A stretch of 32,226 nt of DNA, taken from IMG/VR virus record IMGVR_UViG_3300042544_000136, positions 1 through 32,226 of that record, one strand, 5' to 3'. Made by a program: the position numbers and the translations under genes. The notes under the pieces are model-generated. The model was not told the origin of the DNA, ran no database searches, and saw only the letters and a program-made list of their open reading frames with translations. Shown in pieces: positions 17,554-30,894 of this stretch (the first letter of the stretch is position 1; each line of letters begins with the position of its first letter). Source of the DNA: a virus.

Positions 17554-18189
17554 TCAGGTATCCAATACAGTTGCTTGACGGTCACCAATACGCTGTACAT
17601 CCTCAGACTTCAGGGTCTGGATGATGAGGTCGTAATTCTGTTGCCACATAGGCATACGCTCATCGTTCTTGATGTACGGCATGGCCTGCAACAAAGACCC
17701 ATACAGCAAAGCCTGTGGAGCGTAGATGGTGAACCAATTCGTTTGGTTGGAAGAATCAAGCGGCTGGAGCCGCTCGTAGTACAGAACCTCAAACTCATAC
17801 GCCAGCGCAGGAGATGGAGCGACTATCCAGTGGGTGTAGTCGTAATCGCCGTAATAAACGGGCGCACCAGTCACGGTTGGGTCTGGGGCATACTCGCGCA
17901 GGTACTCGTACTTGCGAAGCAATACAGGCTGTTTCTGACCGCCTACGGTCACGTTCATGGATACTGTCTTGTGCCAGCGGGCAGGCTTGTCGATGATGGG
18001 CTGACCAATCGTCATGGTCGAGGTCTGCACCGTCAGGTTGCCAAGGAACTTGATTTGGCTGGCAATGATTTGCTCTGCCAGCATAATGAACAAAGGAATC
18101 TTGGCGAGAGTATCGGCGTCAGTACGGTCTAAGTAAGACTGTATGTTTTCGACCAGTGAGTCGTAGGTCATTACCGATGCGGTCGTCAT
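17554..18189 (-). CDS. Head-tail adaptor protein, phage adaptor family (211 aa)
   Basis: Predicted to sit between portal and tail. 211 residues beginning MTTASVMTYDSLVENIQSYL. An N-terminal helix pair precedes L-F-I-M-L-A-E-Q-I-I-A, then a beta-rich middle (RWHKTVSMNV, VLLRKYEYLREYAPDP, P-V-Y-Y-G-D-Y-D), then W-F-T-I-Y-A-P-Q-A-L-L-Y-G-S-L-L and a final helix. This architecture matches the adaptor proteins of short-tailed phages (P22 gp4 / SU10 adaptor type). It is transcribed after the lysis genes and before the fibre at 16310. The window also has a second, larger adaptor-like protein at 26517. Confidence 0.7.
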   Translation of the reverse strand: MTTASVMTYDSLVENIQSYLDRTDADTLAKIPLFIMLAEQIIASQIKFLGNLTVQTSTMTIGQPIIDKPARWHKTVSMNVTVGGQKQPVLLRKYEYLREYAPDPTVTGAPVYYGDYDYTHWIVAPSPALAYEFEVLYYERLQPLDSSNQTNWFTIYAPQALLYGSLLQAMPYIKNDERMPMWQQNYDLIIQTLKSEDVQRIGDRQATVLDT

Positions 18190-26516: not shown

Positions 26517-27587
26517 TTACCTCGTGTAGACGGAAATGTTGGGGGCGAAGTAAATCGGTGACTTGTCGCGCTCTTCTTGCTCTGCTTCGTACAGGTACTT
26601 CTCAGCCATCTTCTCCAGATAGCCAACCCTGTCCATTGGTACTTGCGGGAGTTCGAGGCTCATGCGGTGAGCCAGCATGAACACAATCGCCTCGTACCAG
26701 CGTTGAGGAATCTGCAATTCGTTGGTCAAAGCGCCCACGTCCATGATTTGGGTGGAGTACCACACAGTCATCTGCACGAAGGCATTGCTTGGTGTGGGCC
26801 ACAGGTAAATTGTGGGGTTCGGGATGGTGCGGTCAAACCAAAACTGGTAGGGCTGGTTTGCCGTGAAGTTCTTGTTGGGCAGGTTGGTGTAGTCGTCGCG
26901 GTTCAAGCGAGACATCATCACCTCGGTGCTGTTATTGCCGATGTACCACTCGCGCAGGGCCAGAGTAGTGCCACCAGAGGCCACGATGCGGTAGTAGGGG
27001 ACGTTTTGCCCCGGGTCAATGTCAGTCCACACCCATGTGTTGTCCGTCACCGCAACGGCTCCAAGGTCGTCCAGCGTGACCCAAGTAGAGCCATCAGACG
27101 AGTATTGGAGCGAAATATTCCATGTGGCTGACCCACCACCAGCGATGTAGGGCAAAAACCCGATAGAACCCGCATAGATGGGGTTGTTCGTGCCGTAGTT
27201 GATGGTGAAGTTGCCGTTTGCCGAAGTTTGCTGGGTGTAGGTGTCGATGTCGTTGTCGTACAGGTTCGCCACCACACCGCCAGCAGAGGAGGTGTAAGCG
27301 CCATCAGGGCGCGTCATGGTGCGATACAGCACGTTGAGCGTGTCTACAGCCCCGTCAGGCAGGGTGTAGCGGTATTTGTCAGGGGTGAGGCCAATGACCT
27401 CTTTGCTGATGCACCAGTATTGAATGCCACGGTTGATGAGGTTGGACAGCAAGAAGCCAAGCGATTGGCGTGCAGACAGAACCTGCTCGGAGGTCAGTTC
27501 TTCCGCCAGTTTCCCGCACCGACGAGCGCCGTGGTCAATCAAGGTCTGTACATTGACCGTTTGTCCGTAGGTGTCAGAGTACGCCAT
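26517..27587 (-). CDS. Head-tail adaptor-like protein with discoidin-type insertion (356 aa)
   Basis: Ends of the protein look like a P22 gp4-type adaptor: an N-terminal helical part (T-L-I-D-H-G-A-R-R-C-G, then L-S-A-R-Q-S-L-G-F-L-L-S-N-L-I-N-R-G) and a C-terminal part with T-I-Y-L-W-P-T-P, the W-Y-E-A-I-V-F-M-L-A-H-R-M-S-L-E-L motif and A-E-K-Y-L-Y-E-A-E-Q-E-E. Between about residues 95 and 225 a separate beta-sandwich is inserted, with Y-D-N-D-I-D-T-Y-T, W-N-I-S-L-Q-Y-S-S-D-G-S-T-W and Y-Y-R-I-V-A-S-G-G, the style of F5/8 type C (discoidin) sugar-binding domains. Start at 27587 with GGAAG seven bases upstream, one base after the previous gene; a TTG at 27608 is rejected. Confidence 0.7.
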   Translation of the reverse strand: MAYSDTYGQTVNVQTLIDHGARRCGKLAEELTSEQVLSARQSLGFLLSNLINRGIQYWCISKEVIGLTPDKYRYTLPDGAVDTLNVLYRTMTRPDGAYTSSAGGVVANLYDNDIDTYTQQTSANGNFTINYGTNNPIYAGSIGFLPYIAGGGSATWNISLQYSSDGSTWVTLDDLGAVAVTDNTWVWTDIDPGQNVPYYRIVASGGTTLALREWYIGNNSTEVMMSRLNRDDYTNLPNKNFTANQPYQFWFDRTIPNPTIYLWPTPSNAFVQMTVWYSTQIMDVGALTNELQIPQRWYEAIVFMLAHRMSLELPQVPMDRVGYLEKMAEKYLYEAEQEERDKSPIYFAPNISVYTR

Positions 27588-27588
27588 A

Positions 27589-27972
27589 TCAACACTTCCA
27601 TCGTGCAAGCGCCGCCGCTTTTCGCGTAGGCTTGCCTTGTTCGTCTTTCATCGGCCCAGCCATACCACTCATTCGAGCGCAGAAGGAGTCCTTGCGTGCG
27701 CCTCCTTGTGGCTGGGGTGCTTTTAGGTTTGAACCAGTCTCTCGATTGTACTTCTCGCGACCTTTTTGTGTAAGACCTGCGCCTTGTTTTGTTGGCAATT
27801 TTTCGCCACGTCCAACAGAAAGGTTTGGCCCACCTTCTTTAAATTTTTTACCCTCATCAGCCTTGGAAAATTCTTTACCAACTTTTTGAGGGATGCCAAC
27901 TTTTTTGGCAAAAGAAGGGTTGTGCGCAACCGCTTCCATCAATTTGTGCTGGGAAGATGATTTGCTTGGCAT
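27589..27972 (-). CDS. Basic phage protein, DUF6321-like (127 aa)
   Basis: 127 residues, strongly basic. N-terminal half: M-P-S-K-S-S-S-Q-H-K-L-M-E-A-V-A-H-N-P-S-F-A-K-K-V-G-I-P, then K-K-F-K-E-G-G. C-terminal half: L-T-Q-K-G-R-E-K-Y-N-R-E-T-G-S-N-L-K-A-P-Q-P, D-S-F-C-A-R-M-S-G-M-A-G-P-M-K and G-K-P-T-R-K-A-A-A-L-A-R-W-K-C. The second half resembles the phage family I know as DUF6321. The high positive charge suits packaging close to DNA. It sits with the 61-aa basic gene between head and adaptor genes. Confidence 0.65.
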   Translation of the reverse strand: MPSKSSSQHKLMEAVAHNPSFAKKVGIPQKVGKEFSKADEGKKFKEGGPNLSVGRGEKLPTKQGAGLTQKGREKYNRETGSNLKAPQPQGGARKDSFCARMSGMAGPMKDEQGKPTRKAAALARWKC

Positions 27973-27975
27973 GGC

Positions 27976-28161
27976 TTACCAACAAGTTTTCTTAGACGAG
28001 CCGCCATCTTTCATCTTGGCAGTCTTTGCTGACTCAACGAAATCTTGCTTTGTTGGCGCACCTTTGCTACCAACTTTGCGCATCTTTTCGCCAGAACCCT
28101 CGGCTATCCGTTTTTTCTTTGCGTTGATGTTGGCATACAAGCCATTTGGTTTGCTTGGCAT
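27976..28161 (-). CDS. Small basic phage head-region protein (61 aa)
   Basis: 61 residues, MPSKPNGLYANINAKKKRIA, then E-G-S-G-E-K-M-R-K-V-G-S-K-G-A-P-T-K-Q-D-F-V-E-S-A-K-T-A-K-M-K-D-G-G. The pattern is familiar from short hypothetical proteins beside capsid genes in aquatic phages. It is basic and shares the 'M-P-S-K' start with the next gene. It carries one K-x-x-G-G element. Probably a minor virion protein; function unknown. Confidence 0.65.
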   Translation of the reverse strand: MPSKPNGLYANINAKKKRIAEGSGEKMRKVGSKGAPTKQDFVESAKTAKMKDGGSSKKTCW

Positions 28162-29292: not shown

Positions 29293-30492
29293 TTAACAAG
29301 CCCTACCGCCGCTCCGCTTTTTTGCAGGAGGAGGAGAAACAGTCTTGCTGACCTCGCGCTCTGTAGTCGTTACCGCGCCTTGACCAGTAAGGCTGTTGAA
29401 AGCCTTCTTAGCTTGGCGTGGCAAGAACATCAGGGCATCTGTCACCATCTTGCGGTCTGCCTCGTTCTCTGCCTTTTCACGGGCATAGTGAGCGTCATAC
29501 GCGCCTTTCGACATATCCATCTCTTTGTCAGAGGTTGCACCACCACCAGCCATCTTCATCTTGCCGTACTTGCTGTAGACCTCATTGGACTGAGCCTTTG
29601 CCTGCTTCATCGCAGTCTTGTTCTCAGCCGCAAAGTTCTTCATCAAGCGACCTTCAGCGGGAGTTACCTTGCCACCTTTTTTGAAAGTGCCAGACAACTC
29701 GCTGATGGAGACAGGTGCAGACGGCTTTTTACGGCCTTGGGGCATCGCGACGGGACGACCTGTGTCAACAGTACCCCCCGCCGCGTAGGCTTTTTTTGAG
29801 GTTTTACCCCCAGCTTTAAAGCCTCCAGCGTTACCGAGCGCGACACCACCAGTCTTGTAGCCACCGCCGTTACCGTTCTTCACGTCGCCTGTTTTGCCAC
29901 TGGTTTTGCCAGTGTATTCAGCCGTGTGCATATCGGTATTGCGATACTTGCCACCTTGACCTTCGGTGTTGATGATGCCGTTACCAGCAACACCACCCTT
30001 GGCGTACTTCTTGACGTCTCCGCCCTTCTTGTAGCCACCTGCGTTGCCCAGAGCAACACCACCAGTCTTCAGACCTTTATGGCCCTTGCTGGCAGGCTTG
30101 GACTCGTGAGACTTCAGTTCTTTTTCAAGACCCTTCATCTTCGACATCTCAGCCTTGTGCATACCCTTGGACTCGCCGCCTTCAGCTTTGCCGCCATTTT
30201 TCATTGGGGGCATAGCCATAGGAGCGGCAGGCTTCTTAGCCATCATCGCCTTGCGACGTGAGGCCATCGAGGGTTTGCCGGGGGCGCGAACAGGCGCGTT
30301 GACTGCGGGACGACCAATCAGAGCAGGCGTACCAGCGAGAGCGTCCATAGCGCCTCCGCCCATAGCCATTTTCTTGTGACCGCTCTCAGCCTTGCCACCT
30401 TTTTTCATGTTGACATGACCGCCTTTTTTGAGTTTCAACTCAACGGTTGGCTCCGTGGTCATCATCTTGACCATTGGTTTAAATTGTCCCAT
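29293..30492 (-). CDS. Basic Lys-Gly-Gly-rich virion-region protein (399 aa)
   Basis: 399 residues with extreme composition: Lys, Gly, Met and Ala dominate. Short tags K-K-G-G-[HKD], K-x-G-G-[VK] occur more than ten times. One 18-residue unit, [LY]KTGGVALGNAGG[YF]K[KA]GG, appears twice (about 141-158 and 212-229). Helical coiled regions lie at about 110-135 and 285-350, and the C-terminus is basic (P-P-P-A-K-K-R-S-G-G-R-A-C). It has no visible catalytic motif. It sits between the decoration-like gene and small head proteins, with UUCG hairpins on both sides of the pair. It may bind packaged DNA or line the capsid. Similar proteins occur in marine and freshwater phages, function unproven. Confidence 0.6.
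   Translation of the reverse strand: MGQFKPMVKMMTTEPTVELKLKKGGHVNMKKGGKAESGHKKMAMGGGAMDALAGTPALIGRPAVNAPVRAPGKPSMASRRKAMMAKKPAAPMAMPPMKNGGKAEGGESKGMHKAEMSKMKGLEKELKSHESKPASKGHKGLKTGGVALGNAGGYKKGGDVKKYAKGGVAGNGIINTEGQGGKYRNTDMHTAEYTGKTSGKTGDVKNGNGGGYKTGGVALGNAGGFKAGGKTSKKAYAAGGTVDTGRPVAMPQGRKKPSAPVSISELSGTFKKGGKVTPAEGRLMKNFAAENKTAMKQAKAQSNEVYSKYGKMKMAGGGATSDKEMDMSKGAYDAHYAREKAENEADRKMVTDALMFLPRQAKKAFNSLTGQGAVTTTEREVSKTVSPPPAKKRSGGRAC
29806..30072 (-). repeat. Duplicated 18-residue unit in the KGG protein
   Basis: Two copies of K-T-G-G-V-A-L-G-N-A-G-G-[YF]-K-x-G-G, encoded at 30019-30072 and 29806-29859. The shared core K-T-G-G-V-A-L-G-N-A-G-G is identical in protein. Confidence 0.8.
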
Positions 30493-30504: not shown

Positions 30505-30894
30505 TTAAGCGAAAGTTTTGTAGACAATAGTCACACGAGCCGCACCAGCCGTAGCCGCTGTACCAGTCTGAGCAAAAGTGACAGTTGCGTCAATGTCGCT
30601 CGTACCTACAGTGGCCCAAGCGCTGTACACGCCTGTGGTTGCGACGCTCTCGCGTCCTGCTGTGCCTACGTCAGTTGCGGTGACGAAAGCGGCGGCAGAG
30701 CCAGTCTTACCCACCGTAACGGTGTTGGTAGTCCCAGCGTTGAATGCGGTAGTCGTGTCGATGTTGATGTCGATGATTTGCGCATTTGCAGGCAGAGTGC
30801 CGATGCTCACCGCAGACGTATTGCTGAAAGCAATAGTCGTGGTGATAGCCGACAACACACCAGCAATGTTCGTTACTGCGTTGTTTGTAGCCAT
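30505..30894 (-). CDS. Putative capsid decoration protein (129 aa)
   Basis: 129 residues, Ala/Thr/Val-rich beta structure, MATNNAVTNIAGVLSAITTT, with P-A-N-A-Q-I-I-D-I-N-I-D-T-T-T-A-F-N-A-G-T-T-N-T and R-V-T-I-V-Y at the end. Its position as the gene immediately after the major capsid gene, with AGGAG at the ribosome site, is the standard one for a head decoration protein. The family is not named with certainty. Confidence 0.6.
   Translation of the reverse strand: MATNNAVTNIAGVLSAITTTIAFSNTSAVSIGTLPANAQIIDINIDTTTAFNAGTTNTVTVGKTGSAAAFVTATDVGTAGRESVATTGVYSAWATVGTSDIDATVTFAQTGTAATAGAARVTIVYKTFA

Follow-up and report, generated by a model that had tools for sequence, protein, structure and literature searches.

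A lysine- and glycine-rich phage protein with a shared short tag: a candidate head-internal protein of SU10/Pam1-like podoviruses

With moderate confidence, we regard the KGG protein encoded in IMG/VR virus record IMGVR_UViG_3300042544_000136 (analysed over a stretch of 32,226 nucleotides, here called the window) as a head-internal phage protein. More specifically, though at somewhat less than even probability, it may be an internal protein of the head of an SU10/Pam1-like short-tailed phage, disordered, polycationic and multivalent, that holds both DNA and tagged cargo and is ejected with the two. Such a protein would be made late, together with the capsid protein, and would enter the prohead, perhaps by way of its invariant N-terminal block. 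Its lysines would bind the packaged DNA, while its repeated tags would bind a common partner, be it the capsid interior, a scaffold or one another. These tags, about ten in the KGG protein, can be viewed as short linear motifs that recur in ones and twos on ejection, DUF6321, 61-aa and polyvalent proteins; tag-bearing cargo would thereby be gathered in the head and leave with the DNA.

The features discussed are collected in Table 1. The original prediction had emphasised extreme lysine, glycine and methionine content, richness in tags and a duplicated unit, and all three are evident in the protein. Its composition is 16.3% G, 15.3% K, 12.5% A and 6.8% M; Gly-Gly pairs number 21 as opposed to 10.5 in shuffles, and K.?GG has 13 overlapping matches against a shuffled mean of 2.9 and maximum of 10 (5000 shuffles). 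The predicted figure of more than ten tags was generous: it holds under a loose definition (K/R at most three residues from GG; 12 GG sites), whereas strictly there are eight K-x-G-G matches, including four KKGG, which together with KGG make nine separate GG sites with a lysine one or two residues before. The duplicated unit, KTGGVALGNAGG(Y/F)K(K/A)GG, occurs twice, from aa 142 and aa 213. Because the DNA of the two copies is identical at only 40 of 60 bases, the repeat has been maintained as protein sequence and did not arise by a fresh duplication; orthologues carry it too, often as two or three copies of a longer unit.

Table 1. Features of the window (all coordinates in the window; aa, position or length in the protein).
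Feature	Coordinates	Strand	Remarks
KGG protein gene	29293..30492	-	399 aa, net charge +44
Near-invariant N-terminal block MGQFKPMVKMMTTEPTVELKLKKGG	30418..30492	-	aa 1-25, possible docking peptide
Repeat copy 1, KTGGVALGNAGGYKKGG	30019..30069	-	aa 142-158
Repeat copy 2, KTGGVALGNAGGFKAGG	29806..29856	-	aa 213-229
Tag-rich central region	29752..30081	-	aa 138-247; pLDDT nearly all <50, predicted disordered
Predicted helix	29572..29661	-	aa 278-307, pLDDT ~90
Predicted helix	29386..29502	-	aa 331-369, pLDDT ~80-92, sequence poorly conserved
C-terminal GGRAC, terminal cysteine	29296..29310	-	aa 395-399; Cys usually the sole one
Major capsid protein, 304 aa	30940..31854	-	PF25209 / Mu gpT-like; upstream of KGG gene in operon
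129-aa protein, probable decoration/cement protein	30505..30894	-	position only; no tag
61-aa basic protein	27976..28161	-	tag AKMKDGG near end; family 18 tags vs 0.9 expected
DUF6321 protein, modular	27589..27972	-	tag KKFKEGG at module junction
SU10-adaptor-like head-tail joining protein	26517..27608	-	no tag
Tape-measure/ejection-like protein, 940 aa	7584..10406	-	tags MMKKGG, PMRKGG
DNA-ejection-like protein, 341 aa	6559..7584	-	phrog_4287, E 0.0017; C-terminal KGG tags

The KGG gene is real, conserved and under selection. A degenerate IMG/VR search returned 589 related stretches, 80 of which were kept; the gene was present in 12 of 12 long related contigs tested, and pairwise dN/dS with neighbours ranged from 0.08 to 0.25, mostly 0.14-0.25. 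The 194 distinct family members span 200-639 aa with a median net charge of +40, and 170 of them end in a cysteine; 146 of the 194 have no other cysteine outside the last residues. An alignment of 48 sequences contains 20 invariant columns, mainly in the N-terminal FKPM(V)KM..TEP...L.L..GG and in several tags. This fixed N-terminus, FKPMVKM...LKKGG in the window protein, is invariant in the 48 sequences at M1, F4, K5, P6, M7, K9, M10, T12, E14, P15, L19, L21, G24 and G25, and among the loci examined it was found in the KGG family only. Conserved tag spacing, suggested earlier as a check, is indeed a property of the family: tags sit at fixed, partly invariant aligned positions, and both tags and flanks are invariant across members down to ~45% identity. 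Likewise, conservation of GG glycines is 0.89 as opposed to 0.72 for single glycines (39 representatives). The family is common among freshwater phage contigs of IMG/VR, yet it matches no Pfam or PHROG model. A tblastn search for cultured relatives matched the environmental genome MW202545 only, and bins of bacterial genomes gave two matches, each of them betaproteobacterial, which is a hint as to the host. One 61862-bp contig, longer than the usual genome, carries two different KGG genes (L034 and L046) ~54 kb apart and is either a chimeric assembly or has a duplicated end.

Comparisons with known families returned no Pfam family at E 0.1, no match among PDB sequences and no real match among PHROGs (best E 0.071), which agrees with the earlier view that the protein is neither an enzyme nor a known capsid fold. 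The Pfam family called KGG (PF10685, stress-induced repeat) was rejected, as its profile does not match; common to both are the name and the K-G-G triplet only. An AlphaFold model built with 48 sequences is mostly disordered (mean pLDDT 55.8, 202 of 399 residues below 50, pTM 0.21, four helices), the tag region included.

Strong positive charge and disorder are features of protamine-like DNA-condensing proteins, and the KGG protein has both. It is therefore conceivable, if unlikely, that it neutralises packaged DNA and that the GG tags are mere flexible spacers between lysines. The lysine richness and the late operon are in keeping with this, as are the lysines of T4 internal proteins, which contact DNA phosphates (PMC3012670). 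However, the tags are fixed to the residue and have a hydrophobic or aromatic residue before the lysine, they also occur on large polyvalent and tape-measure-like proteins, and their number does not rise with protein length in the family (r = -0.17). Low copy number would also count against the DNA-holding head protein proposed above: by our estimate a 54-kb genome has ~108,000 phosphates, of which 100 copies at +44 would balance ~4%, so that bulk neutralisation would need many hundreds of copies. The original prediction had left the role open among DNA condensation, a matrix inside the capsid, a protein ejected into the host and phase separation; the evidence favours an internal, ejected matrix or cargo protein over pure DNA condensation.

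The position of the gene is highly constant. The window encodes, in order, the capsid protein, a 129-aa protein, the KGG protein, 101-aa, 259-aa and 61-aa proteins, the DUF6321 protein and an SU10-like adaptor, after which follow fibres, nozzle-like and ejection proteins. The capsid gene lies upstream on the same strand in 124 of 124 testable loci, and downstream come DUF6321 in 107 of 108 and an SU10-type adaptor in 108 of 108. A phage scaffolding protein, mostly helical and encoded between portal and capsid, was rejected on this basis, since the KGG gene follows the capsid gene in all 124 loci; a weakly coiled-coil-like candidate scaffold gene precedes the capsid gene. The location between capsid and adaptor, along with the tags shared with ejection and polyvalent proteins, makes the predicted presence in the virion likely. 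Relatives of the capsid protein occur in Caulobacter RW, Roseobacter CRP-901, Pelagibacter HTVC023P, DSL-LC04 and Planktothrix Pag-Yong1; a long KGG protein after the capsid gene is absent from these five, and DSL-LC04 and Pag-Yong1 encode short K/G-rich proteins immediately before the adaptor; an 83-aa protein of Pag-Yong1 bears such tags. The window itself has two SU10-adaptor-like proteins (17554-18189 and 26517-27608), the latter of which also matches an F5/8 type C domain weakly.

To characterise the tag, we considered the GG sites of the KGG family, whose commonest preceding context is M/Y/L/F followed by K and any one residue. We counted the strict tag, hydrophobic (M/Y/L/F)-K-x-G-G, over a set of 3050 mechanically called proteins from 233 loci and the window; that it recurs outside the KGG protein had not been suspected in the original prediction. 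Relative to shuffles that preserve composition but not low-complexity clustering, and with related sequences counted repeatedly, it was enriched in the KGG protein (1067 vs 59; 18x), the DUF6321 protein (121 vs 9.6; 12x), the 61-aa protein (18 vs 0.9; 21x) and the tape-measure-like ejection protein (10 vs 1.3; 8x), although some groups are small (7, 7 and 4 proteins, with n=7 each for the tape-measure-like and 341-aa proteins). Clustering of otherwise unlabelled proteins added a polyvalent cluster of 52 long proteins (55 vs 15.9; 3.5x) and a 22-member family of ~160 aa (14 vs 0.7). By contrast, the tag is depleted in the capsid protein (1 vs 8.5), the adaptor (0 vs 6.2) and the fibre (0 vs 6.1) and nearly absent from nozzle proteins; within the ejection module, the 614-aa and lytic proteins are untagged, a point against the head-cargo reading. 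The share of GG sites that conform to the tag is 0.42-0.44 in the KGG, DUF6321, 61-aa and 22-member families; it falls to 0.18 for the polyvalent cluster and 0.12 for the tape-measure-like protein, and controls reach 0.01. A 93-98-aa family was scored but not counted as tagged, its form being R-D-G-G rather than the K form.

Judged from sequence, the tagged set looks like the contents of a head (ejection, polyvalent and small basic proteins), and the proteins of the shell and tail machine lack the tag. The motif may thus be an undescribed packaging or sticking tag; our literature search found no description of hydrophobic-K-x-G-G in phages, no paper on virion proteomics of near relatives, and neither proteomics nor binding results on a member of the family. 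Of the polyvalent proteins, about a third are predicted to be virion-packaged, and part of the class to be both packaged and injected (PMC5512222). At the position of the polyvalent cluster, the long proteins carry ART-PolyVal, LPD23, ParB-N or PcfJ domains. Like the KGG protein, ART-PolyVal and LPD proteins are tagged in relatives of the window phage, but they are large enzymes, and the KGG protein lacks any enzymatic domain. Tagged ADP-ribosyltransferase/LPD polyvalent proteins are encoded upstream of the capsid gene at loci L183 (92-4822), L177 (15056-19105) and L092 (1299-3623).

An independent search points to the same genomic region. A DNA pattern for MKKGGKVKKM, whose choice made no use of context, matched at least 120 IMG/VR stretches. 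Most of the proteins they encode measure 77-318 aa; they are basic, often have a C-terminal cysteine, and in many cases start with the module MPSKS..Q...M.AVAHNP.FAKKVG, as does the DUF6321 protein of the window. In 18 of the 19 loci with enough flank, the same strand carries an SU10-type adaptor 0.5-2.1 kb further downstream, and Pfam scans of neighbouring genes agree; a tagged basic protein next to the adaptor is therefore a general trait of these phages. This proximity of small tagged proteins to the adaptor counts against head cargo and would suit a neck or head-completion factor that acts at the portal/adaptor during assembly, whether inside or outside the final virion, and is not bulk cargo. 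The KGG gene, upstream of the adaptor wherever this could be scored, fits that role as well. We nevertheless consider it distinctly unlikely, given that the adaptors themselves are devoid of tags while distant ejection and polyvalent genes have them.

Tags in DUF6321 proteins fall precisely at the start of the next module as seen in its standalone versions. This, too, speaks against a head-cargo function, as it also fits linkers or cleavage sites. The modules of these proteins (MPSKS...AVAHNP; GLYANI...; DUF6321) occur in varied combinations fused via a K-x-G-G tag (L282, L089, L119, L015), and two of them are separate genes within 27589-28161 of the window, whose DUF6321 protein is matched in 585 phage records. 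The MPSKS..Q module (27840-27972, the N-terminal part of the DUF6321 gene) also occurs by itself, as a tiny gene, in phiKZ-like jumbo phages, for instance PHIKZ165.1. A fold search with the DUF6321 protein, for which the model was weak (pTM 0.31), gave no match.

Gly-Gly cleavage is used by adenovirus-type proteases, and the junctions could mark maturation cleavage after Gly-Gly, with the KGG protein a precursor processed in the prohead and the tagged fusions polyproteins. Several observations render this quite improbable: the only protease among 25 of 34 Pfam families listed for the long related contig G001 is an M15 endolysin-type peptidase, Pfam reveals none in the three genes between GroES and the capsid protein, and the KGG protein is conserved as one chain over its whole length, both ends included. 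Adenain/PLpro-like cleavage in particular was rejected, as these enzymes follow a P4 rule that the tag, with a hydrophobic residue at P5 and lysine at P4, violates. Alternatively, the tags might be plain low-complexity K/G-rich linkers, flexible joints that evolved more than once and lack a specific partner, as their place at module junctions and the gene-wide abundance of K and G would allow. This is very improbable in view of tags and flanks that remain invariant in distant family members and of the near-absence of tags from capsid, fibre and adaptor proteins.

For a head-internal, ejected KGG protein, a parallel in logic is phage T4, whose internal proteins vary in content and are placed in the prohead by a common short peptide (PMC3012670). 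In IPI-III and Alt, as proposed here from genes alone, a short motif, the CTS, unites diverse head-internal, ejected proteins. The CTS occurs once, at the N-terminus, is 10-20 residues long and is cleaved (PMC5694885), whereas hydrophobic-K-x-G-G is internal and repeated and does not match it in sequence; a T4-type N-terminal targeting peptide was therefore set aside, the conserved N-terminal block being confined to the KGG family. No prohead protease is among the Pfam families listed for G001, which also holds unknown proteins. Ejection proteins of podoviruses (T7 gp14-16, P22 gp7/16/20, SU10 gp20-24) come from the same kind of phage, those of SU10 leave the head (PMC9509320), and the ejection module of the window has two tagged members. 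Yet they are bigger proteins whose genes belong to the tail/ejection module, whereas the KGG protein is disordered and adjoins the capsid gene, and PHROG and Pfam revealed no sequence relation to known podovirus ejection families.

A broader and more doubtful proposal is that hydrophobic-K-x-G-G serves aquatic SU10/Pam1-like podoviruses as a general code for head cargo, by which ejection proteins, injected polyvalent enzymes and small basic proteins would be brought together in the head and in which the KGG protein would be a multivalent hub or condensate former released with the genome. If the tag were a packaging signal, injected phage proteins would become predictable from sequence alone, something long missing for uncultured phages, and the tag could serve as a portable label for cargo. 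The KGG protein would then also be an example, from a prokaryotic virus, of a disordered multivalent hub that organises packaged genome and cargo.

Finally, the late operon of the window includes a beta-ketoacyl synthase gene (PF02801/PF00109; 12592-13979) adjoining that of an acyl-carrier-like protein, together a small fatty-acid or polyketide-like pair; a ketoacyl synthase is also encoded in the relatives MW202545 and G001.
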